This document shows, piece by piece, positions 19,391-30,452 of a stretch of DNA of 64,000 nucleotides; within the stretch, counting starts at the first letter, position 1; every line of letters starts with the position of its first letter. Location: contig JAKPUQ010000074.1 in NCBI GenBank assembly GCA_029572815.1, positions 1 to 64,000 on the forward strand, in the 5' to 3' direction. Under the pieces are notes generated by a model, which was not told the origin of the DNA, made no database searches, and was given only the letters and a program-made list of their open reading frames with translations. The translations under genes were made by a program, and so were the position numbers. The DNA is from Bacillota bacterium. GTDB lineage: Bacteria > Bacillota > Clostridia > Oscillospirales > Ruminococcaceae.

Positions 19391-20827
19391 TTATTTGGAC
19401 TGTGCAAATACTTCGTCCTCGATGACATTGCGGTTGGCGTCGAGGTCGTCTATCCAGAGAACGTTTCCAACGTCAACGTCCTCACCGTGGAATGTGCCGT
19501 CGGCAGGTATCTGTATCTGCTTTATGGTGTAACGTGCACACAGCGGCATTCTCAGAGAGAGCAGATACATATTCAGTCCCGACATATTTGTGGACACATC
19601 GGGTATAACATCTGAAGCCAGATTCTTGAACATTGAGGGGCGGAAGCTCTTCATCTTTGCAAAGATGAGAGACATTACGCGGCGCTGTCGCTCGGTACGC
19701 TCAAAGTCGCTGTTGCCCACCTTTCTTATACGTGAGTAGGAGAGTGCCTGTTTGCCGTTGAGGTGGAGCTTTCCGCCGCCGCTTAGCAGGTCAGAGTTCC
19801 TGTCATCGCCAACAAGCTCGTTGACCTCGGATATGAGGATAATGTTTATCTCCTCTGCTTCTGCGTCCGATACCTCAAGGTCTATGCCGCCAACTGCGTC
19901 TACCAGTGATACGAAGGACACGAAGTCCACGGAAACATAGTCATCTATGCGGACATCGAAATTGTACTCGATAGTGTCCATGAGCAGCTCGGGACCGCCG
20001 AATGCATAGGCAGCGTTAAGCTTGTTCCAGCCGTTATCGGGGATCTCAACATAGCTGTCGCGCATGAAAGAGGTCATGATGATCTCGTTGGTCTTTCTGT
20101 TGAGTGAGACCAGTATCATTGAGTCGGAGCGTCCGCGGTCGTCGGCAGTCCTGCCATCTGTGCCGAGGACGAGGATATTCTTAACATAGCCCTTTCCGAC
20201 GGAGTCTGCGTAGTGATTGCGGTGACCCTCGGGGACCTTGTTTACCTGCTTTATCAGGCATACCGAGGTACATGAATAGATCCCGAAGAGCAGCAGGAAG
20301 AGAATGAGGATTATATGTATTATCCTGCGGATTATCTTTCCAACAAGGCTCTTGTGTCTGCGCTTTTTCTTCTTTTTCCTGGGAGCTTCCTCCTCATGAT
20401 GTGGAGCAGCAGGCTTCTTTCCGCCTGAGGGCTGAGGTCTGGGAGCAGCAGGAGCTGCCGGTGGCGGCGGGGGAGCATATCCGCCTCCGCCTGAATTGTT
20501 TGTGCCGTACCCCTGAGGAGACTGCCTCTCATAGTCATAGTAGCGGCGGTCGCTGTAGTCGAACTGCTGCTGGGGAGGAGGAGTTGTCTGAGGGAACTGG
20601 GGCGGCTGTCCCGTTTTAGGGAACTGAGGCGGAGCTCCGGTGCTCTGGTATCCGGGAGCCTGTGGCTGCTGAGACTGTGCTGTGCCTCTGCGATTTACCT
20701 TCCTCAGGGGAGGAAGGTCTGACTTTGGTGAGCTGTAGCCCTCCAAATCATTTGGAAGCAGCACCGTATCCTCATTGTCTGTATTCTGTATTTCGTCTGT
20801 GTCTCTGCCATTATATCTGTTTGACAT
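19391..20827 (-). CDS. LytR-CpsA-Psr (LCP) family wall-polymer ligase
   Basis: A cytosolic Pro/Gln-rich, probably disordered N-terminus (~1-150) with a Lys/Arg cluster (RKKKKKRRHKS) precedes one membrane helix (IIHIILILFLLLFGIYSCT). The outer LCP domain (~215-400) has VLGTDGRTADDRGRSDSMIL, the Arg-rich substrate site MTSFMRDSYVEIP, NAAYAFGGPEL, DAVGGIDLEV and SYSRIRKVGNSDFERTERQR. LCP enzymes move teichoic-acid or capsule polymers from undecaprenyl phosphate to peptidoglycan. It follows the pseudo-ATPase gene by 74 bases in the same direction. Start ATG 20827 follows AGAAAGGAAAG. The long basic Pro-rich tail may be regulatory (phosphorylation or partner binding), which is inference. Confidence 0.9.
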   Translation of the reverse strand: MSNRYNGRDTDEIQNTDNEDTVLLPNDLEGYSSPKSDLPPLRKVNRRGTAQSQQPQAPGYQSTGAPPQFPKTGQPPQFPQTTPPPQQQFDYSDRRYYDYERQSPQGYGTNNSGGGGYAPPPPPAAPAAPRPQPSGGKKPAAPHHEEEAPRKKKKKRRHKSLVGKIIRRIIHIILILFLLLFGIYSCTSVCLIKQVNKVPEGHRNHYADSVGKGYVKNILVLGTDGRTADDRGRSDSMILVSLNRKTNEIIMTSFMRDSYVEIPDNGWNKLNAAYAFGGPELLMDTIEYNFDVRIDDYVSVDFVSFVSLVDAVGGIDLEVSDAEAEEINIILISEVNELVGDDRNSDLLSGGGKLHLNGKQALSYSRIRKVGNSDFERTERQRRVMSLIFAKMKSFRPSMFKNLASDVIPDVSTNMSGLNMYLLSLRMPLCARYTIKQIQIPADGTFHGEDVDVGNVLWIDDLDANRNVIEDEVFAQSK

Positions 20828-20901: not shown

Positions 20902-23433
20902 TTATGGTTTCTTTATGCTCACCGCAATGTAGGTAAGTGCTGCCCATGCCACATTGTATACTGTCATGGCAGTTGCCGACATATAAAGGAAATTGGTCTG
21001 GAACGCCTTTGAGAGTATCAGCAGCATACACAGTACAAATCCCAGAAGTATTGAAGCGGATTGCAGTATAAGTCCGATTATTGCGGAGGAGTGAACTATC
21101 TTTGTTCCGATGATAAGCTCGGCAAGTGAGGCGAATTTGCCCGTTGTAGCCATTGAAGCACTGAGACGTACTGCCTTCTTTGTCTCCTCATAGAAGTCCT
21201 CGTGGAGCTTCTTGGGGAGTATCCTTGCCATTTCCTCGGGGATACCGAAGAGGGTATTGAGCTTTTTCAGTGTTATGCAGGGATCGATGCTCTTGATGAA
21301 CATACATATCTTCTGCTTGCTCAGCTTTTTAGCCCAGCGCTTTACGTAGCGGTCAGCGACTATATCGACTACAAAGAGGGCAGCCAGATTTCCTGAGATG
21401 GAAAGATACAGCGCATCTTTGCTGCCGTCTACGAACTCAGCCTCCTGAGCCTTTGTGGGCACGCCTTCGATGTTGTGGCTGGTCATGAGCTCGCGGTTTC
21501 CGAAGAGCACGCGCTTGTTGTTTATCCATCCGCACATTCCCATTCCGTCCTCATAGGAGTAGTTCTCAATAGGATAGAGGGCACCGTTCCTGCCGGCGAT
21601 GACGTCGGTGAAAAGCTGTGACATTATGCTTCCTGCGGTAGCTGTAAGACTTGCAGCCTCAAGGAGTGCCTCATCAAGCTTGGTATTTGAGAAGACCTTG
21701 ATACCGTCCAGTCTGACAGTTCCCTCAGGGAAGAGGGTGCCTGCGTCGATGAGTATGGAGTTGGTATCATAGAAGTCGTCAACGCTCTGATAGCCCAGCA
21801 TAATGCCCTTGTTCTTAATGGCGCTGTTGGAGACATTCTCAAGGGGGATATTGACTACAAATGGCATTGCGATACATGATGTAGCGCATATTATCATGCT
21901 GAATATGGAGAATCCGAAAGCGGCAGACTCCATGGTAGTGAATGTGCCCTTGCAGAAGAATGTGAGAAAAAGAGAGACTATTATTGAAACTATGAGACAC
22001 AGGGGCGAAGCCTTGCGGCAGAAGTCGTCAGTCATATCCGAGGAGTATGTGTATCTCAGGAAGTCTGTAAGGAAGTCGGTCTTTCTCATGGAAGCGAGGA
22101 TAGGGAAGTCTCCGAGAGTTCCGCGGGTAATGCGCTCGGCTCTGTCCTCGTCGGTAACATATGTAACGCCGTGCCTGTCAAAGTTCTTTGACACGAACTT
22201 GAAGTTTCTCGCCGCTCGTCTGATGATAAGCAGCTTTCCTATGGCGTTTATCAGCAGTGCAAGTATACCCACAGGCATATAGATATGGATATTCTCAGAG
22301 CTCACCAGGTCCGGGCGCATGTAAGCGGGGATAATAGCGATAAGACATGAAAGCGCAGTGACTGCGGTCATGGAATCGCTGTCCGCCTTGAAGCTGAGCA
22401 GCTTTTTCACGCCCTTGGTAATGACTGCCATTGATGAAAGCAGCGAAATGATACCAAGTACAAGATGTATGGTAAGGTATGTCTTTATGTGTGACATACT
22501 GAGAAAATCAAGTATAGGAAGCTCAAACTGATTGGTCACTGTAATAAACAGGCTCAGGAAGGCTGTCATTGCCAGTATGAACACCCTCACGGAGATGGTG
22601 CTCTTCAGTTCATATATATCCCTGCCTACGTCCTCTACATCGCCGTAGTAATTGAAGTCAACGATGCGCTTTGTACGCTTTGACTTTGAGTGGAGGGACA
22701 TGAACTCGTCAGCCTCCTGAGTAATGTGAACGTCAAGCTGTCCTGCGTTTATATCAGCCTTTTCGCTGAGGTTGATGCTGGTGAGCTCAGCTCTTGGAGC
22801 GGGCTCAACAGGCTTTGCAGCTTCAACTGCCGCAGGCGAGGGGACTATATCCGTTATCTGTTTCTTGCCCTCGGGACTTTCAGCAGCCTGGATTATCTGT
22901 ATCCTGCTTCGTTTTTTCTTCTTGAACTCGGGAGGAGTATACATATACTCTCCCTCGGGAGTCTCCCTTGCATAGGTATAATCGTTGTCCTTGCCGCGCC
23001 TTTTCTTGCTTCTCTTCTTTGCGCTCTGTACCTCCTTGGCTCTGGTGGAATCGCTCATTCTCCTTATTTTCGGAGCTTCGTCCGGTGTCATCTGAACGGG
23101 AGTGATAGTCCCCGAGGGTATCACCTTTCTCTGGGGATTGGTGCGTATCTCACTCATGGCGTCAGAGCTGACCACGGCAATCTTATGCCTTGAGAGGTCG
23201 GCAGGCTTTACATCGTCCGCAGGTGTATCGCTTCTCAGAGCGTTATCGAAAAGTGCGGACTTTTCATGAGACACAGGAGGTCTCGATTTTGCTTTCTCAA
23301 CGATGTCGGGAGCTTCAACAGTAGAATTTATAATTTTCTGGGCATCGACTCTGCCCACTTTAGTCTTTGGTTCCTGGTTATCGGGAGAGTACTCGTCAAG
23401 AATAGCCTCCAGCGATGGTTTCTGTTCCGACAT
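20902..23433 (-). CDS. P-type-ATPase-like membrane protein lacking the phosphorylated Asp
   Basis: ATG 23433 follows AAGGAG; the frame upstream to 23508 overlaps rlmB and is ignored. Residues 1-255 are hydrophilic, with basic patches (KKRSKKRRGKD, FKKKKRSR). About eight membrane helices are arranged as in heavy-metal-type P-type ATPases. Where DKTGTLT is expected (~560) the sequence is ILIDAGTLFPEGTVRLDG, so the catalytic Asp and Lys are not in place. The N domain region contains YSYEDGMGMCGWINNKRVLFGNREL, and the usual TGD/GDGxND region reads FIKSIDPCITLKKLNTLFGIPEE. ATP-driven transport is therefore unlikely; a sensor, scaffold or pseudoenzyme role is inferred. It lies between rlmB and an LCP ligase. 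Confidence 0.75.
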   Translation of the reverse strand: MSEQKPSLEAILDEYSPDNQEPKTKVGRVDAQKIINSTVEAPDIVEKAKSRPPVSHEKSALFDNALRSDTPADDVKPADLSRHKIAVVSSDAMSEIRTNPQRKVIPSGTITPVQMTPDEAPKIRRMSDSTRAKEVQSAKKRSKKRRGKDNDYTYARETPEGEYMYTPPEFKKKKRSRIQIIQAAESPEGKKQITDIVPSPAAVEAAKPVEPAPRAELTSINLSEKADINAGQLDVHITQEADEFMSLHSKSKRTKRIVDFNYYGDVEDVGRDIYELKSTISVRVFILAMTAFLSLFITVTNQFELPILDFLSMSHIKTYLTIHLVLGIISLLSSMAVITKGVKKLLSFKADSDSMTAVTALSCLIAIIPAYMRPDLVSSENIHIYMPVGILALLINAIGKLLIIRRAARNFKFVSKNFDRHGVTYVTDEDRAERITRGTLGDFPILASMRKTDFLTDFLRYTYSSDMTDDFCRKASPLCLIVSIIVSLFLTFFCKGTFTTMESAAFGFSIFSMIICATSCIAMPFVVNIPLENVSNSAIKNKGIMLGYQSVDDFYDTNSILIDAGTLFPEGTVRLDGIKVFSNTKLDEALLEAASLTATAGSIMSQLFTDVIAGRNGALYPIENYSYEDGMGMCGWINNKRVLFGNRELMTSHNIEGVPTKAQEAEFVDGSKDALYLSISGNLAALFVVDIVADRYVKRWAKKLSKQKICMFIKSIDPCITLKKLNTLFGIPEEMARILPKKLHEDFYEETKKAVRLSASMATTGKFASLAELIIGTKIVHSSAIIGLILQSASILLGFVLCMLLILSKAFQTNFLYMSATAMTVYNVAWAALTYIAVSIKKP

Positions 23434-23443
23434 AATTATCTCC

Positions 23444-24205
23444 TTATTTGCTTCCCCTGCGCTGGCGGAGCACCTCATACATGAAGATGCCTGCCGCAAC
23501 GGAAGCATTGAGTGAATTTATCCTTCCCAGCATGGGAAGCTTTATCATGAAGTCGCATTTTTTAGCGATGAGCTTGCTTATTCCGAAGCCCTCAGAGCCT
23601 ATTACCAGACCAACTCCGCCTGTGAAGTCAGTTTCTGAGTAGTCTGAGCCCGAGGCGTCTGTGCCGTATATCCACACGCCGTTTTCCTTGAGGGTGTCGA
23701 TACAGGCGGCAAGATTGGAGACTCTTGCTACGGGGACGTAGCTTGCCGCTCCTGCCGAGGTCTTGAAGACAGTAGCGTTGAGAGAAGCGCTCCTGCGCTT
23801 GGGGATGATAACTCCGTCAGCGCCGGATGTCTCGGCGGTACGGATGATAGCGCCGAGATTATGGGGGTCTTCAATTTCATCGCATATGATTATGAAGGGC
23901 TTGGTGCCCTTTTCCTGTGAGACTGCAAGGATATCCTCAACAGTCACATACTCTCCGCAGGCGCCCTCAGCGACTACACCCTGATGGGAAGCGCCGCCGG
24001 AAAGGCGTGAGAGCTTTTTATCGTCGGCGTCCTTGACTACGACGCCCTGTTCCTTTGCCATTTTGCGGATAAGTCCGAGACTTCCGCCGTTTCCGTCTAT
24101 GTAGATAGTGTCGAGGTTAGCTCCTGATTTGAGCGCCTCGATGACGGGATTACGTCCGCATATGATATTTTCGGACATCTCTGAAGTTCTTTTATCTTTT
24201 TCCAT
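23444..24205 (-). CDS. rlmB: 23S rRNA 2'-O-ribose methyltransferase, RlmB/TrmH (SpoU) family
   Basis: N-terminal substrate-binding domain (IICGRNPVIEALKSG, GGASHQGVVAEG) followed by a knotted SpoU domain with the three motifs NLGAIIRTAETSGADG, GLVIGSEGFGIS and LPMLGRINSLNASVAAGIF. The family methylates G2251 of 23S rRNA (or tRNA G18 in close relatives) with S-adenosylmethionine. The start at ATG 24205 has AAGG only 1-2 bases away; an in-frame ATG at 24178 lacks a better site. It is the first gene of a run with the pseudo-ATPase (10 bases downstream) and LCP gene; that arrangement suggests cotranscription. Confidence 0.9.
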   Translation of the reverse strand: MEKDKRTSEMSENIICGRNPVIEALKSGANLDTIYIDGNGGSLGLIRKMAKEQGVVVKDADDKKLSRLSGGASHQGVVAEGACGEYVTVEDILAVSQEKGTKPFIIICDEIEDPHNLGAIIRTAETSGADGVIIPKRRSASLNATVFKTSAGAASYVPVARVSNLAACIDTLKENGVWIYGTDASGSDYSETDFTGGVGLVIGSEGFGISKLIAKKCDFMIKLPMLGRINSLNASVAAGIFMYEVLRQRRGSK

Positions 24206-24353: not shown

Positions 24354-25197
24354 TCATCTGTTTATATCTATCACCGACAGCTCGGGACGGTTGAATATCC
24401 TGGGAATGAATATCATTCTCAGTGGTCTGGCAAGACCAACGCTTATTATATGTACAGTGCCGTCATAATCGTACATTCCCTGCGTATAATCTGGGAAAAT
24501 TCCCTGATCGGGGGCGTAGAGTCCCTGATCCAGCAGCTTAGGTATCCTCCACTGACCGCCGTGGGCGTGACCGGAGAGGATAAGGTCGAAGTTCTCTTTA
24601 TTATTGAGTCCCTCGCCCAGGTAGGCATCTATCTGCTCGGGCTGATGGGCTATGAGGATATTGTAGCAGCTGCTGTCGAGAGCGTCAAAGCACTCCTCCA
24701 GCTGGGTCTTGTGTTTGCCTCTGGCAATGGAATCCTCCACGCCGAAGATCCTAACCTTTTCGCCGTTTACCTCAATATCGGAGTATTCTCCCAGAAGCAG
24801 GGGACATATCTCCCTTGCCTGATCGTAGAACTCCTCTGTATCCTTGCGCATTTCCTCATGATTGCCGGGAGAGTAATAGCAGGGATACTCAGCAGAAAGT
24901 GCCTTCATGAGGGTGAGGGCGTGCTTTGTGCCGCCCCCATGCGTCTATCACATCGCCGCCGAAGATGACTATATCCGGATCAGCCTTGTGTACCTCATCT
25001 ATGATCCCCGACTGGTCTGTACCGCCGTAGAAGCAGTTGTGGAGGTCCGATATAAAGACAATCCTCATGCCGTTCCGGAGCTTTGGACTCTTTACACTGT
25101 AGTGAACAGTTCTCATTGTGAAGCCCCAGGCGGACAGAAGCACCAGTATCAGAAGTACGATGATGACGATCAGCCGCTTTTTAGCTTTTTTTGTCAT
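24354..25197 (-). pseudogene. Membrane-anchored YkuE-like metallophosphoesterase, frameshifted
   Basis: An N-terminal membrane anchor (LIVIIVLLILVLLSAWGF) is followed by calcineurin-like motifs: VFISDLHNCFYG, IVIFGGDVIDAW, then after the break YYSPGNHEE, ILIAHQPE and LSGHAHGGQWRIP. The metal ligands are thus all present but split by a frame change in the G5 run (plus-strand C5, 24934-24938); with four G's the join reads DAWGGTKHALTLMKAL and the protein is 280 residues. The first frame starts at ATG 25197, overlapping the acyl-carrier-protein stop (TAATG). Known relatives (YkuE and others) act on phospho-lipids or nucleotides; here it closes an operon for surface-polymer acylation, so release of a carrier or lipid phosphate is a guess. 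Confidence 0.75.
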
Positions 25198-25439
25198 TAT
25201 TTGCCTCTTTCAGCGATAATGTTCATCATCTCTCCCACGTTTTTCATACCCGATACCTCACGCATTTTGAAGCGCATACCGAACTCATCCTCCACTGCGG
25301 CAACAAGGTTGATATGCTCAATGCTGTCCCAGTCCTCGATGTCATCGGAGGTGGTGGAGGGGGTAACGGAAATGGAAGGGTCACCGAAAACGTCGCGGAA
25401 TACCTCATTAAGTCTTGCTGTTATCTCATTATTATTCAT
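25197..25439 (-). CDS. Acyl carrier protein of the FkbH-MBOAT operon
   Basis: The 80-residue protein has the carrier fold and the phosphopantetheine site WDSIEHINLVAAVEDEFG, with Ser in DSIEH. DxxDS spacing and length are closer to the small carriers of FkbH or Dlt systems (DltC) than to fatty-acid AcpP (DSLDTVELV). It overlaps fkbH by 8 bases and the phosphoesterase gene by 1 base, implying translational coupling. The carried group is expected to be the one loaded by FkbH, and to be passed to the MBOAT protein at the membrane. Confidence 0.9.
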   Translation of the reverse strand: MNNNEITARLNEVFRDVFGDPSISVTPSTTSDDIEDWDSIEHINLVAAVEDEFGMRFKMREVSGMKNVGEMMNIIAERGK

Positions 25440-27231
25440 TGCTGTTCTCCTTATCGCGTATTTTTATTACTTTGTTCCTGTTTTCGTAGTTTACGATATC
25501 CATGTGCCAGACAGAATCGCCGTTTTCCGTCAGACTGTCCCGTGTAAATCCGAAGCTGCCGTAAAGCTCAGAGACCAGGTTGTTCTTCAGCGTTTTATAG
25601 TAGTAGCCGTTGAGACGCTCAACGCCTCTTTCCTTTGCAATGCGCACAAGCTCGTCCAGCATGGCAAGCTCCATATCTCTTTTCAGTACTCGGCAGCTCA
25701 TGAGCCAGAGCTCGATATCAAGCTCTTTGCCGCGGCATTTGCCTATTACTACGGAAACTATGCCGTTGTCACCGAACTTGTCCAGAAGCCGTCCGCAGAT
25801 GCAGATATGGTCGGGACTTACGCTGACTTCGTGTATCTCGTTCTCGTTATAGCGCCTTGTTGTAAGGTTGAACTGGTTGCTCTTGTTGGTGAGCTGAGTT
25901 ATACGCTGGATATATACAGGCTTGAAGCCGCAGATGACTGCGTTCATGTCAAGGCTGAGGAGATAGTCCTCATAGCTCTCGAATTCCTTTCGCTGTGCAG
26001 CTCTCTGAGCATTTGCCTTGTACATCTCAGAGCGGTGCATATCGTCCTCGGAAACGGAGGTGACCTCAAAATATCCGCCTCTTGTCAGCTTATACATCGC
26101 ATCGTGGACATTGCTAAGGTTCACAGTCTGCACCATGGGCAGCTGTCCCTCTACGATAGCGCACTCTGCGGGATTGTCGTCAACGAATACGAAGCTGTCC
26201 AGTCCGAGGCTGAGCTCCTCTGCGGACTCGGCAATGTTTCTGTCCTTTGGCTCCCAGTTTGCTTTTATTGATACAAAGTCGGAGGGAGAGAGTACACTGC
26301 TGGGGTGCTGAAGACCAAGTATGGCGTTTTCCTTCTCGTTCTTGGAGCATACTGCCAGCAGCACGCCATAGTCCTTATAGCCCTTTATGAAGCTCTGGAA
26401 TTCCTCATAAGCCTGTCCTACAGCGGTCTCGGGACCTATCTCGATGCCCTCCTGACCGTCGTCGCCTATGACTCCGCCCCAGAGGGTGTTATCAAGGTCA
26501 AGGTCGATGACCTTGTGGTTCTTGCCGTAAATGGACTTGATTATGCAGGCGAGGCTGTATGCAAGGTCTGGGATAACAGCTGTGCTCATGGCATACTTGT
26601 AGAGATACCACGCCTCGGCATCGTGCCAGCGGGAGAGACCGCAGACAGCGGAGAGGTAGTTTATATCGTGGATATACAGTCCGTGAGCATTTCTTGCATA
26701 GTCAGAGAGCATGACGTTCATGCGGTCGATGAAGGCTCCGTGACCTGTTACGCTCCAGCCGTCATAGCTGCCTGTCCGCCTGAACAGAGGCAGCTCGAAG
26801 CTGTTCTGTATTATGGGGCAGGAATAGCGCTCGATAAGGTTTTCCCAGACCTGCCTGAATATGCCGAACTGCTCCTCAAGGCGCTGCTGCACTCTTTCGG
26901 GCTTTTCAGCGGGGCTTTCGGGCATGAGCGTAAGATTTCTCGAAGTCGTATGGATATAGATTATGTCAGGGCCGAAGCTGTCCAGCTCGGGATTACCGAA
27001 AACTGCGTCCTCATAGAACTTGTTGTACTCCGACTGGTAGAATTCTGGCTCAATGCCGAAATTCAGCAGAAAAAGCTCCAGTGCGGATACGATGTGGTTA
27101 GTCGTTGAGCCCCCCAGCACAGCGACCTTTTTCTTGACGCGGACAGTGCCGTCGGAAAGCAGAGCCTTTTTCAGAGCAAGCCTTCTGCGTATTATGTCCT
27201 TGCCGTCAAACGGAAAGTTCAGTTCTCTCAT
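25432..27231 (-). CDS. FkbH-like HAD-superfamily acyl-loading enzyme
   Basis: A 599-residue three-part protein: an SGNH-like N-terminal region (VAVLGGSTTNHI, IIYIHTTSRN), a HAD IIIC domain with the nucleophile motif DLDLDNTLWGGVIGDDG (~237) and VCSKNEKENA, VFVDDNPAE, and a GNAT-like C-terminus (NQFNLTTRRY, ELWLMSCRVLKRDMELAML). FkbH enzymes of polyketide pathways take 1,3-bisphosphoglycerate, remove phosphate and load a glyceryl group on an acyl carrier protein. The adjacent carrier gene fits this. ATG 27231 follows AAGGAG. Here no polyketide synthase is present; the partner is an MBOAT acyltransferase, so the group probably ends on a surface glycopolymer. The exact acyl group is not shown by sequence. 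Confidence 0.88.
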   Translation of the reverse strand: MRELNFPFDGKDIIRRRLALKKALLSDGTVRVKKKVAVLGGSTTNHIVSALELFLLNFGIEPEFYQSEYNKFYEDAVFGNPELDSFGPDIIYIHTTSRNLTLMPESPAEKPERVQQRLEEQFGIFRQVWENLIERYSCPIIQNSFELPLFRRTGSYDGWSVTGHGAFIDRMNVMLSDYARNAHGLYIHDINYLSAVCGLSRWHDAEAWYLYKYAMSTAVIPDLAYSLACIIKSIYGKNHKVIDLDLDNTLWGGVIGDDGQEGIEIGPETAVGQAYEEFQSFIKGYKDYGVLLAVCSKNEKENAILGLQHPSSVLSPSDFVSIKANWEPKDRNIAESAEELSLGLDSFVFVDDNPAECAIVEGQLPMVQTVNLSNVHDAMYKLTRGGYFEVTSVSEDDMHRSEMYKANAQRAAQRKEFESYEDYLLSLDMNAVICGFKPVYIQRITQLTNKSNQFNLTTRRYNENEIHEVSVSPDHICICGRLLDKFGDNGIVSVVIGKCRGKELDIELWLMSCRVLKRDMELAMLDELVRIAKERGVERLNGYYYKTLKNNLVSELYGSFGFTRDSLTENGDSVWHMDIVNYENRNKVIKIRDKENSNE

Positions 27232-27240
27232 TTTATCTCC

Positions 27241-28737
27241 TTATTTTTTCAGATTGTTGTGTATGCAGCTGCGGTTTGCACCAACAGCAGAGAATGAGCA
27301 CATGGCAAAAAGTACGTCCGTAGCCTCCACGCTGTCGATGAAGTCGATGGCATTAAGGTCGAAGTAACGTATATCGCAGAGATATATGTTCTCGAAGGAG
27401 CTTGTCAGCATGGGCAGCAGGGCGTTGCCGTAGCTGTCCTTGAATATGACAAGGTTTCTGCCGTTTTTGCACTCTGTATTTACGTGGACTATCCTCTCAT
27501 CGGAGCCGAAGACCATATAATAGCCTGAATTTGGCATTGGCGACGGGTCAAGAAGAAGATTTGCTGCCACGGGATTTTTGAAATGTGTATCGTACTGTGT
27601 GACAGTAACGGGAGTTTTGGGCTTATAGTATACGAAGTCCTCAGGATTGTTGAGCAGGGTAGCACTCTGTGTGTACATATAGAGGGTACCCACATATCCC
27701 GGGAGAGTAACGGTCTCGTACTCGGAAAGGTCCGCAAAGGGGACACCTGCCATGAGGGCGAACTGCTCTGCGGCATAGTAAGCGCCGAGAGGCTGCCAGT
27801 GGTGGTCGGTACGGGAGTATATAGCCTCGTCCTTGTGGGCATTGAGGATATTGTAAGCGTCAACGGGGATAACTCCCTTCAGAGATTCCTCTATCTTGTC
27901 GAAGTCATCCTTCTCGCTGTAGGCGAGATTGCTGTATTCCTCGGGAAGATAGAAGGAGCTTGAGGTGGGAAGCACCATTGAGTATACGTTCTTGTCACCG
28001 AGAGCCTCCTTGTACTCATTGACGAATGAAGCGTACTCCTGCTCGGTGCCCCATGCACCGCCGTAGAGGGTGATACCACGCTTGTTTACGATGAGGATAT
28101 TGTTTGTCAGTTCGCCCTGTGCGGGTTCTTCCTCGGGAGGAACGGTCGTCTCGGGGGCAGCAGTGGTCTCTGCCGTTGGAGCAGAGACATCGGGAGCAGC
28201 TGTAGTCACGGGAGGAGAAGTTGTCACGGTGACCGTGGGCTTCTGCTCAAAGCCGCTGCCGTAGAGCTCTGCGCCGTCCTCGCCGTCGCCGTATTTGCGC
28301 CCCTTGAGAGGCGTGATATTATCGGCGATGAACTGCTTTATGTGGGCACGGTCATGTACAGTATCATCGAAATAATCCGCGATACCTGCGGTATATTCGC
28401 CGCTGACGTAGTTCTTTACGGAGAACTTCGGGAATTTGGTCAGCATACGGTTCTCGTCGTCTGCTTTGGTCTCGTGGGGGAGCAGAGCAACGTACACGAA
28501 GCCACCTGCAAAAATAGCTCCCATGAGTATGATATTTGCGAGAGCTATCGAGTTCAGGGCAGTCTTTCTGCGCTGTTTTTTTAGCTTTTTAGCCTTTATT
28601 GGAATATCTATGGCTGTTTTTTCACGGTCGGAAGCCTCAATAGAGATGACGGGCTCGGGACGCTCAGCCTTATCATTCGCTTCCGGGGACTTGTTTTTCT
28701 TTTCGTCCTGAGAAGCGGTCTTGTTATCTTCGTTCAT
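27241..28737 (-). CDS. DHHW-family (SGNH-like) membrane-anchored acyltransferase partner
   Basis: A basic cytosolic N-terminus (~1-65) with KLKKQRRK, one membrane helix (SIALANIILMGAIFAGGFVYV), then an outer domain interrupted by a Thr/Pro/Ala-rich insertion (~165-205). It shows the DHHW signature in YSRTDHHWQPLGAYYA (~304) and the Ser motif IFKDSYGNALLPML near the C-terminus, as in AlgJ/AlgX-like SGNH proteins. These proteins act with an MBOAT partner to transfer acyl groups to extracellular polysaccharide. It starts 12 bases after the MBOAT stop and ends 9 bases before the fkbH start. By analogy it takes the place of DltD or AlgJ. Confidence 0.88.
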   Translation of the reverse strand: MNEDNKTASQDEKKNKSPEANDKAERPEPVISIEASDREKTAIDIPIKAKKLKKQRRKTALNSIALANIILMGAIFAGGFVYVALLPHETKADDENRMLTKFPKFSVKNYVSGEYTAGIADYFDDTVHDRAHIKQFIADNITPLKGRKYGDGEDGAELYGSGFEQKPTVTVTTSPPVTTAAPDVSAPTAETTAAPETTVPPEEEPAQGELTNNILIVNKRGITLYGGAWGTEQEYASFVNEYKEALGDKNVYSMVLPTSSSFYLPEEYSNLAYSEKDDFDKIEESLKGVIPVDAYNILNAHKDEAIYSRTDHHWQPLGAYYAAEQFALMAGVPFADLSEYETVTLPGYVGTLYMYTQSATLLNNPEDFVYYKPKTPVTVTQYDTHFKNPVAANLLLDPSPMPNSGYYMVFGSDERIVHVNTECKNGRNLVIFKDSYGNALLPMLTSSFENIYLCDIRYFDLNAIDFIDSVEATDVLFAMCSFSAVGANRSCIHNNLKK

Positions 28738-28749
28738 TTATGTGCCTCT

Positions 28750-30150
28750 TTAAAATCTGTAATACAGGAATGGGTGAGTGGTGGAGTCAACAAGCATGAT
28801 GCTTGTTATCACCAGAATAAGAGCTGCCGCAACCGCAGCTGCCGAGGAAATGACAGCCTTTGAAGCAAAACGCTTGTCCGACACATTCTTTATGCTGCTT
28901 ATAACGGGGAAGCAGCATATCACCGCAATGATGAGCAGGTACATATTGTTGATGAGAGAAATTTTGTCCTGCATGGCGATGAAGCCGTTTCTGCCGAATC
29001 CGAAGGCTGTTTTGAAGAATGTGCCCAGCTTGCTTATATCCTCGAAGTAGAAAATGCCGAAGCCGATGAATATTACGAATTTGCTGTAGATATGTCTGAT
29101 GACAACAGGTATCTTCTTCATCTTCTTTTTGCCTATTTTCATTTCGATGAATACGAAGACGCCGTAGTAGAGTCCCCAGAGAATGAAGTTCCAGCTTGCG
29201 CCGTGCCAGATGCCTGTGCAGAGCCATACGAGGAAGAGTCCGCCGTACTTTCTGCGTTTGCCGAAAATAGGGATATACAGCACATAGTCACGGAAGAATG
29301 TGCTGAGAGAGATATGCCAGCGCTGCCAGAATTCGGTTATGTCCTTGCATATGAACGGGTGATCGAAGTTTTCGTCAAAGTGGAAGCCGAAGACGCGTCC
29401 CAGACCGATGGCTATATCCGAATAGCCCGAGAAGTCGAAGTATATACGCATACCGTAAGCTATGACGCCGTACCATGCGCCAAAGGCGGTACTGCCGCCG
29501 ATGTTGCCGAGGAAGTTCTCGGAAATAAGGTTCAGCTGGTCAGCCAGAAGGACCTTCTTAGCTAGTCCAAGTGCGATACGGTTGAAGCCGTAGGAAATAT
29601 CGCGGAGCTCCACTGTGCGGCTCTCAATTTCCTTTTCGATAGTGCTGTATCTTACTATAGGACCTGCCACCAGCTGCGGGAACAGTGTCAGAAACAGCAG
29701 GAAGTTCTTGAAGCTCTTCTGTGGCTTAACCTTTTCCCAGTGACAGTCGATGATATAGGAAATGGTCTGGAAGGTATAGAAGCTGATACCGATAGGGAGC
29801 CGTATATCGGGGACGGGTATCGAGCATGAAAAAATGGCGTTGATATTTTCCGCAATAAAGCCGCTGTACTTGAATACACCAAGCATAAGAAGGTCATAGA
29901 CTACAGCCGCAGCAGTTGCAGCCGTATCGCCCCCCTTGCCCTGATATTTTCCGATAATGAGACCTGCCGTGTAGTTCACGACTGCGGTGAGCAGCATCAG
30001 GAAAATATAAACGGGCTCGCCCCATGCATAAAAGATAAGCGAGAAAATGATCAACACCGTGTTTTTTTGTTTTGTCCCTCTTGCCGCAGCATAGCACAGC
30101 AGGCATAAAGGGAGAAATATATATATGAAGAAAAGTCTTGAAAAAACCAT
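28750..30150 (-). CDS. MBOAT-family O-acyltransferase (AlgI/DltB-like)
   Basis: A 466-residue multi-pass protein of the AlgI/DltB class: IIFSLIFYAWGEP, GISFYTFQTISYIID, LFPQLVAGPIVRY, MRIYFDFSGYSDIAIGLG, WQRWHISLSTFFRDY and the catalytic His in CTGIWHGASWNFILWG (~312). It moves an acyl group from a cytosolic donor across the membrane, to an outer acceptor or to its SGNH partner. As first gene of the operon with DHHW, FkbH, carrier and phosphoesterase genes, it would use the FkbH-loaded carrier as donor, as DltB uses DltC. ATG 30150 is preceded by AAGGCGG. Its promoter lies at 30280-30308. Confidence 0.92.
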   Translation of the reverse strand: MVFSRLFFIYIFLPLCLLCYAAARGTKQKNTVLIIFSLIFYAWGEPVYIFLMLLTAVVNYTAGLIIGKYQGKGGDTAATAAAVVYDLLMLGVFKYSGFIAENINAIFSCSIPVPDIRLPIGISFYTFQTISYIIDCHWEKVKPQKSFKNFLLFLTLFPQLVAGPIVRYSTIEKEIESRTVELRDISYGFNRIALGLAKKVLLADQLNLISENFLGNIGGSTAFGAWYGVIAYGMRIYFDFSGYSDIAIGLGRVFGFHFDENFDHPFICKDITEFWQRWHISLSTFFRDYVLYIPIFGKRRKYGGLFLVWLCTGIWHGASWNFILWGLYYGVFVFIEMKIGKKKMKKIPVVIRHIYSKFVIFIGFGIFYFEDISKLGTFFKTAFGFGRNGFIAMQDKISLINNMYLLIIAVICCFPVISSIKNVSDKRFASKAVISSAAAVAAALILVITSIMLVDSTTHPFLYYRF

Positions 30151-30420: not shown

Positions 30421-30452
30421 AAAAAATCCCCTCACCGAAGAGGTGAGGGGAT
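30421..30452 (-). terminator. First terminator of the NfeD-SPFH operon
   Basis: Stem ATCCCCTCACC / GGTGAGGGGAT, minus-strand tail TTTTTTAGC, directly after the SPFH stop codon. Confidence 0.9.

Follow-up and report, generated by a model that had tools for sequence, protein, structure and literature searches.

We analysed a 64,000-nucleotide stretch of DNA (the window; contig JAKPUQ010000074.1) from a Ruminococcus genome near Ruminococcus flavefaciens. Its minus strand carries four close-packed core genes, which encode a membrane-bound O-acyltransferase (MBOAT), a DHHW protein, an FkbH enzyme and an 80-residue carrier protein; transcription runs in this order and continues into a metallophosphoesterase gene. 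By their coordinates, the first three genes are set 12 and 9 bases apart, FkbH and the carrier share 8 bases, and the carrier and the phosphoesterase share 1 base; these spacings are those of one operon. An earlier, sequence-only reading of this DNA had reported five tightly spaced genes with overlaps of 8 and 1 bases. The overlaps match the coordinates, and the four core genes are borne out by family matches and position, but the phosphoesterase gene is split over two frames and falls outside the core. The core genes, and the sites within them on which the argument turns, are as follows.

28750-30150, minus strand: MBOAT acyltransferase, 466 amino acids (PF03062, E 3.5e-25)
29203-29316, minus strand: 38-residue stretch between His279 and His316 of the MBOAT, without PLGG; the counterpart of the DltC-binding HC helix lies at about 29245-29274
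28753-28770, minus strand: C-terminal hexapeptide FLYYRF of the MBOAT, a match to the FxYxxF acyl-shuttle motif (F461, L462, Y463 and F466 invariant in 19 aligned sequences)
27241-28737, minus strand: DHHW protein of SGNH/AlgX type, with an N-terminal hydrophobic stretch seen by eye (PF14286, E 1.1e-42; PF16822, 1e-7)
27796-27807, minus strand: DHHW motif, candidate catalytic Asp-His (D311, H312, H313 and W314 nearly invariant in 18 aligned sequences, one of them truncated)
27433-27435, minus strand: Ser435 (KDSYGN) of the DHHW protein, candidate serine for accepting the acyl group (nearly invariant in 18 aligned sequences, one of them truncated)
25432-27231, minus strand: FkbH, candidate carrier-loading enzyme with N-terminal, HAD and GNAT-like C-terminal domains (TIGR01686, 1.1e-81; PF21211, 2.1e-7)
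26473-26499, minus strand: HAD motif DLDNTLWGG, residues 245-253 of FkbH (invariant in 12 aligned sequences)
25693-25695, minus strand: Cys513 in LMSCRVLKR of FkbH, a candidate that we take to be the acyl-accepting cysteine (SCR invariant in 12 aligned sequences)
25197-25439, minus strand: 80-residue carrier protein (PF00550, 2.9e-5; profile match to the carrier structure 2lml, 6.1e-24)
25323-25325, minus strand: Ser39 in WDS, predicted phosphopantetheine site of the carrier (W37, D38 and S39 invariant in 16 of 16 aligned sequences)

With 274.5 bits against TIGR01686 (cut-off 146.65), the FkbH of the window belongs to that family. Its profile matched 3slr (1e-57) over the N-terminal and HAD parts, while the C-terminal part matched GNAT folds. 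The predicted structure (predicted local distance difference test, pLDDT, 75.1; predicted template modelling score, pTM, 0.52) likewise matched 3slr and many GNAT folds, although its pTM is too low for the domain packing to be trusted. The structure nearest to the carrier, 2lml, is one that we take to be GmACP3 of Geobacter. FkbH enzymes have been assigned the formation of glyceryl-carrier thioesters from 1,3-bisphosphoglycerate (PMC7489565, PMC8949500; papers are cited here by PMC number).

Resemblance to known systems

The operon had been called Dlt-like, a description that holds for the route of transfer and not for the proteins. A carrier thioester, a membrane step by an MBOAT and an SGNH-type protein outside the cell would all have counterparts in Dlt, and the carrier with its predicted phosphopantetheine serine (PF00550; WDS) is encoded in the operon as in a Dlt-type system. 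Moreover, DltB is the nearest solved structure: the MBOAT profile matched DltB chains (E 6.7e-30) and the predicted MBOAT structure (pLDDT 78.9, pTM 0.81) had DltB 6bug as its best fold match. The closest MBOAT from a named genome, that of R. flavefaciens 007c, is 88% identical. However, the window MBOAT scored 156.8 bits against the DltB equivalog model TIGR04091, far below the cut-off of 375; none of the 18 matches to DltA (TIGR01734) in the genome exceeded the cut-off of 559.85 bits (best 253); and DltD (PF04914) had no match in the genome, the control being matches in 2 of 14 genomes. A true Dlt operon was rejected on these family tests. Relative to Dlt, FkbH stands in for DltA and the DHHW protein for DltD, the cargo is probably glyceryl, and the shuttle tyrosine would sit on the MBOAT itself instead of on DltX (for which no search was made).

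By its parts, the operon resembles PatA/PatB, PatA1/PatB1 and AlgI with AlgJ/AlgX. The MBOAT has two conserved histidines and ends in the FxYxxF motif defined in PMC12148441, and its DHHW/SGNH partner, which carries the Ser and Asp-His expected in an MBOAT-SGNH pair, matched the uncharacterized 4nzk (6.6e-122), Bacillus cereus PatB1 (8.8e-26) and AlgJ (0.0037). In contrast to these acetylation pairs, a carrier and its candidate loader are encoded alongside the two proteins here and PLGG is missing, so that the operon does not fit the PatA/AlgI acyl-CoA type, with its PLGG or SLGG MBOAT and no carrier. The window MBOAT joins features of both known types, a PatA-style fused motif and a carrier. 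The operon would work like Dlt without being a Dlt system; judged by its parts, it is an AlgI/PatA-type pair whose donor side is new.

A third resemblance is to the FkbH glyceryl-ACP (acyl carrier protein) systems (OzmB, the tetronates and methoxymalonyl-ACP), in which an HAD-type FkbH acts with a stand-alone carrier. Unlike those polyketide and non-ribosomal pathways, this operon has no polyketide synthase (PKS) or FabH-like protein found alongside, and its product appears to reach a membrane acyltransferase. The sequence-only reading had seen no polyketide synthase nearby, and we agree: within 7.5 kb of FkbH no gene exceeds 868 amino acids, and neither PKS nor non-ribosomal peptide synthetase (NRPS) was found among ten Pfam-scanned genes and the LytR-CpsA-Psr (LCP) gene, five neighbours of 275-428 amino acids lying outside the scan. 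FkbH and the carrier could still act in trans, providing glyceryl-carrier for a small-molecule pathway (NRPS or tetronate). FkbH is best known from PKS/NRPS pathways, and adenylation-model matches occur in open frames of up to 2558 amino acids on other contigs of the genome and in an 845-amino-acid gene of the window some 26 kb away. With no PKS/NRPS gene beside the operon and a conserved FkbH-MBOAT link (below), we consider such a role most improbable. Furthermore, a tetronate pigment once thought common with R. flavefaciens is not made by DSM 25089, which has no such cluster, and a celluxanthene-like tetronate was discarded as a candidate on this ground (PMC12144888). The FkbH-MBOAT combinations found in the literature searched were confined to suomilide/aeruginosin peptides: FkbH and MBOAT co-occur in suomilide-type clusters, where the MBOAT is proposed to acylate a sugar or, for varlaxin, another group, in neither case with use of glycerate (PMC13122637, PMC10143770).

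Linkage of FkbH, carrier and MBOAT across genomes

We surveyed 141 loci, namely the window, 60 regions around FkbH matches and 80 FkbH-selected loci (the best 80 of 594 relatives, a choice that leans towards close FkbH); MBOAT played no part in the selection. A search of the genus gave 28 FkbH match rows (22 larger regions taken, four kept as short loci, one weak and one the window). A wider search gave 55 rows over the cut-off, of which one was the window, 39 were covered by 38 regions and 15 were left out (four each in G256 and G254, three in G192, the second of G277, and G092, G297 and G093, several in frames of 2221-4261 amino acids); 14 rows under the cut-off also lay outside the survey. 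The two genome sets overlap partly (L103 and L175 are apparently one locus). Counts over 113 FkbH proteins use distinct sequences, whereas the arrangement, shuttle-motif, 115-locus and tailoring counts keep repeats; six MBOAT pieces of fewer than 380 amino acids were dropped from the motif count and locus L069 was skipped in the tailoring count. We use arrangement A for loci with a DHHW gene and arrangement B for those with an MBOAT and no DHHW gene.

The exact order MBOAT-DHHW-FkbH-carrier was found in 47 of the 141 loci, with eight more carrying two to four DHHW copies, and FkbH-carrier-MBOAT without DHHW was found in 30. Among 113 distinct long FkbH proteins (at least 700 bits against a profile built here), 106 had a carrier within 3 kb and 98 an MBOAT within 7 kb, on the same strand in 97 cases; among long FkbH proteins below 700 bits, which belong to other subfamilies, an MBOAT was nearby in 1 of 15. 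This linkage across genomes rules out a chance neighbourhood of FkbH and MBOAT, and the sequence-only reading, which had staked itself on the two genes being linked in related genomes, survives. Exact DLDNTLWGG and MSCRVL motifs were present in 57 of 63 distinct arrangement-A FkbH proteins, the other six being variants or cut pieces. Within the genus, FkbH matched in 21 of 35 other genomes, and 18 of these 21 have DHHW-FkbH-carrier in this order (short loci that do not reach the MBOAT); a 19th has the same order and an FkbH without its middle. At L031 (G006 contig 246) the FkbH of an A cassette lacks its middle (residues 34-401 unmatched) and the DHHW, carrier and phosphoesterase genes are kept; that genome also holds a second, B-type FkbH locus, L062.

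FkbH also matched 116 plasmid records, six of which were inspected. A plasmid of Rhodobacteraceae bacterium SC52 has carrier, HAD-IIIC and MBOAT genes in a row, and in two records of Sinorhizobium meliloti pSymB an MBOAT, a 409-amino-acid protein, a carrier and FkbH occur together, a VOC-family gene being close by. FLYQGF forms the C-terminus of the S. meliloti MBOAT, but Asn replaces the first His, which makes its activity uncertain. Plasmids of Niveispirillum and Pseudalkalibacillus carry FkbH and carrier with other partners. FkbH-carrier-MBOAT loci are widespread in Clostridia and occur in at least two Alphaproteobacterial plasmid records, and the operon is not a one-off. In S. meliloti 1021 pSymB (L239) FkbH lies in two frames; most other listed S. 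meliloti records match in one piece.

Tandem DHHW genes, two to four between MBOAT and FkbH, were seen at L155, L166, L157, L189, L150, L152, L076 and L077. They suggest several acceptors or sites for each loaded carrier, and some of the copies may be fragments. At 13 of 43 B loci the MBOAT has a neighbour from one further protein cluster. Pfam scans of four members of this cluster gave two weak matches to a GDSL-type hydrolase, both below the curated cut-off, and no match for the other two. An SGNH-like partner is likely in those loci, to judge from these matches. At L104, L117 and L120 the FkbH is short (about 350 amino acids, without the N-terminal domain) and lies one to three called genes away from the MBOAT; no carrier was found nearby, and Asn takes the place of the first conserved His in the MBOAT. 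The gene adjoining the MBOAT at these three loci belongs to one cluster, SGNH-like by eye, of which the L120 member has a polysaccharide deacetylase domain and the L161 member no Pfam match.

MBOAT lineages and the candidate docking stretch

In quick trees made without bootstrap, the arrangement-A MBOATs (55 rows) formed one side of a branch with a Shimodaira-Hasegawa-like approximate likelihood ratio test (SH-aLRT) value of 100, which excluded all 22 unlinked MBOATs (that is, those not beside FkbH) from the same genome and FkbH-bearing relatives. Arrangement-B MBOATs fell elsewhere in the tree (three label changes), which puts the link to FkbH on two or more MBOAT lineages, barring its loss in between. 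Most FkbH proteins of A and B shared a single clade of 114 rows (63 A, 41 of 45 B and ten without MBOAT), apart from other FkbH, with some long branches that make the deep joins unsafe. The catalytic positions are well conserved. His279 and His316 occur in 55 of 55 arrangement-A MBOATs, and the strict FxYxxF pattern in 54 of 55 and in 32 of 47 from arrangement B, where 12 of the 15 remaining rows end in FIYARI or FIYATI.

The region between the two histidines was used to test for the type of donor. In DltB, helix HC contacts the carrier through Met302, Val305, Ile306 and Met309 (PMC11035591), residues that fall just past the first conserved His (chain numbering from the profile alignment). Unlinked MBOATs read Y-I-P-L-G-G-N-R or similar after this His, and PLGG or SLGG was present in all 39 intact ones examined. 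These come from 44 distinct unlinked MBOATs: 38 were found by pattern (36 PLGG, two SLGG), L258 was read from its sequence as PLGG, and five degenerate proteins without the second His were excluded. In arrangement A, by comparison, PLGG was found in 0 of 55, the stretch is always 38 residues as against 41, and the window reads IPIFGKRRKY. PLGG is also missing from 41 of 45 arrangement-B MBOATs, most of which carry a long basic insert here (median length 58), and from the two Alphaproteobacterial plasmid MBOATs beside FkbH (length 54). PLGG may mark the use of CoA, and the pattern fits a replacement of this stretch by carrier docking on at least two occasions. Since confidence in the MBOAT model is low both for the docking stretch (pLDDT about 50) and for the C-terminus (under 50), docking of the carrier was judged from sequence alone.

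These results bear on the possibility that the operon houses two functions, with the MBOAT and DHHW protein O-acetylating a polymer from acetyl-CoA and FkbH and the carrier making something else. The AlgI/PatA and PatB/AlgJ character of the pair, its fused shuttle motif and the use of acetyl-CoA by PatA (PMC12148441) would all agree with such a division. Set against this, the linked MBOATs form a clade of their own without the PLGG or SLGG of every intact unlinked MBOAT examined, and FkbH is linked to an MBOAT again in another MBOAT clade and in the two Alphaproteobacterial plasmid records; we regard two separate functions as very unlikely. By contrast, a coupling of carrier to MBOAT is supported by the linkage over genomes, the MBOAT tree, the conserved catalytic residues and the remodelled docking stretch. 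The earlier proposal that an FkbH-loaded carrier feeds an MBOAT and an SGNH-type protein is well supported by these four lines, and the loaded carrier is very likely the donor for the window MBOAT.

Several observations weigh against this interpretation. No MBOAT was found at 15 of 115 loci with this FkbH (repeats included), and while in seven of the 15 one flank is shorter than 2 kb, the remaining eight have longer flanks and include Lachnospiraceae loci where FkbH adjoins housekeeping genes. A Subdoligranulum plasmid with FkbH of this kind, whose record carries no annotation, likewise has no MBOAT within 7 kb. Among linked B loci, L096, L159 and L129 keep PLGG, as does L167 on a second MBOAT on the other strand, and L104, L117, L120 and L159 lack the first conserved His, as in Sinorhizobium. 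As arrangement A is one clade, the loss of PLGG within it amounts to one evolutionary event. The separation of this FkbH subfamily from other FkbH in the tree means that its substrate could differ. Finally, none of the genes of the operon was identified as belonging to glycan biosynthesis.

The Lachnospiraceae loci L147, L151, L158 and L179 have this FkbH, no MBOAT, a called carrier in three of the four, and a shared gene order (phosphofructokinase-like, dnaX-like and recR-like genes by eye in L151 and L158). Either glyceryl-carrier is put to another use there or the MBOAT lies elsewhere.

Proposed route, cargo and acceptor

We propose that the operon is probably a carrier-fed MBOAT-SGNH acylation system, in which a glyceryl group would pass from 1,3-bisphosphoglycerate to the carrier, then to a tyrosine of the MBOAT, a serine of the DHHW protein and a surface polymer. 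FkbH would take the C3 acyl group of this glycolytic intermediate and strip its phosphates, so that the phosphopantetheine arm of the carrier would bear a glyceryl thioester. Once charged, the carrier would dock at the cytosolic side of the MBOAT, which would load the acyl group onto Tyr463 near its own C-terminus, on the outer side; the DHHW protein would then take the group onto Ser435 and esterify a hydroxyl of an extracytoplasmic polymer. We infer the formation of glyceryl-carrier by FkbH and the acyl-Tyr and acyl-Ser steps from the protein families.

If the carrier is the donor, glyceryl is its likely cargo. Tailoring genes (MaoC, SDR, a transketolase pair, aldo/keto reductase and glyoxalase-fold) lie near 21 of 43 B cassettes, which points to frequent alteration of the loaded group in B, but the same five clusters, the only ones counted, were absent within three genes of all 56 A cassettes. 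In A the group is therefore probably passed on unchanged, most likely as glyceryl. The same machinery might instead carry another cargo, if the FkbH subfamily loads a different small acid or if enzymes encoded elsewhere change the glyceryl group before transfer. The separate FkbH clade and the tailoring enzymes of the related B systems lend this some weight; the tailoring-free A cassettes and an intact HAD motif and carrier speak against it, and we think it unlikely.

As to the acceptor, we lean somewhat towards a glycan, with a cell-wall glycopolymer as the best guess. Classical wall teichoic acid is an unlikely candidate and was rejected, since PF04464, which we take to be of TagF/TagB type, had no match in the genome. 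A gene of the LCP family, which joins glycopolymers to the wall, is a conserved neighbour: its cluster was found in 20 loci, always on the same strand, and 18 of these, in the genus, have it at the same place downstream of the cassette. This fits a wall glycopolymer without proving it. The same chemistry could also serve a lipid or a surface protein; the operon has no glycan gene, and the tandem DHHW copies at some loci may mean several acceptors. We judge such an acceptor quite unlikely, given that characterised MBOAT-SGNH pairs act on envelope polymers (PMC12148441) and that the LCP gene is conserved in the genus.

Glyceryl groups of known chemistry, such as the L-glycerate of gellan (cited in PMC4432689) and the N-glyceroyl group of Tannerella, for which a candidate gene is still elusive (PMC6120980), exemplify the decoration that this operon would make, and the operon offers concrete candidate genes for them. 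MBOAT-SGNH acylation pathways other than Dlt are described as having no carrier protein (PMC12148441). The operon and its relatives would break this rule by adding another route fed by a carrier, one in which the loading enzyme differs. The sequence-only reading knew of no described system of this composition, and we too found no description of an FkbH-carrier-MBOAT surface system in the literature searched, whose coverage leaves out most subscription journals. If the proposal is correct, glycolytic flux through 1,3-bisphosphoglycerate would be tied to the charge and solubility of the cell surface in many Clostridia of gut and rumen, and the His-to-His stretch of an MBOAT could predict from sequence whether carrier or CoA is used.

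A broader proposal, on which we are evenly divided, is that these loci belong to a broad class of carrier-fed MBOAT-SGNH systems not described before. FkbH and a dedicated carrier would take the place of acyl-CoA in this class, which would span two or more MBOAT lineages and more than one phylum (Clostridia, and Alphaproteobacteria such as Sinorhizobium with pSymB). The simplest members would hand over glyceryl, and others would add MaoC, SDR, transketolase-pair or glyoxalase-fold enzymes to alter the group on the carrier first. Such a class would constitute a bacterial assembly line for varied cell-surface ester decorations, fed directly by glycolysis.

Neighbouring genes and transcription signals

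Around the core genes, the window contains the following further features.

30426-30452, minus strand: strong terminator-like hairpin (11 pairs, seven of them GC, and a T-run), which ends the gene upstream of the operon
24354-25197, minus strand: metallophosphoesterase in two frames (pieces 24889-25197 and 24354-24908; PF00149 on both pieces)
19391-20827, minus strand: LCP protein (PF03816, E 1.2e-40), downstream context and not core

The hairpin sets the operon apart from the upstream gene. A single promoter had also been proposed; a promoter-like site (score 9 of 12) does lie between the upstream gene and the MBOAT, but the number of such sites is indistinguishable from shuffles (11 found against 9.1, standard deviation 3.4), and the claim was dropped.

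The two phosphoesterase pieces overlap in different frames and match separate parts of PF00149, while in relatives the gene is a single open frame; the cause is either a sequencing error or a real break. The phosphoesterase cluster was found in 16 of 141 loci, all from the genus of the window or titled Ruminococcus, which marks it as a passenger of the genus, and it was rejected as a core part.

Elsewhere in the same genome (contig 172, L232:10617-13139, outside the window) there is a second MBOAT-DHHW pair that looks catalytically dead: the MBOAT lacks both conserved histidines and the C-terminal FxYxxF, and the adjoining DHHW-family protein, by eye, lacks the DHHW motif. As the MBOATs L214, L215, L219 and L220 of the genus also lack the second His and the motif, this odd type of MBOAT is conserved. 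Finally, an 868-residue protein encoded at 20902-23508 (minus strand), whose cluster was found in 19 loci on the same strand, had no Pfam match at 0.01 and by eye resembles a degenerate P-type ATPase.

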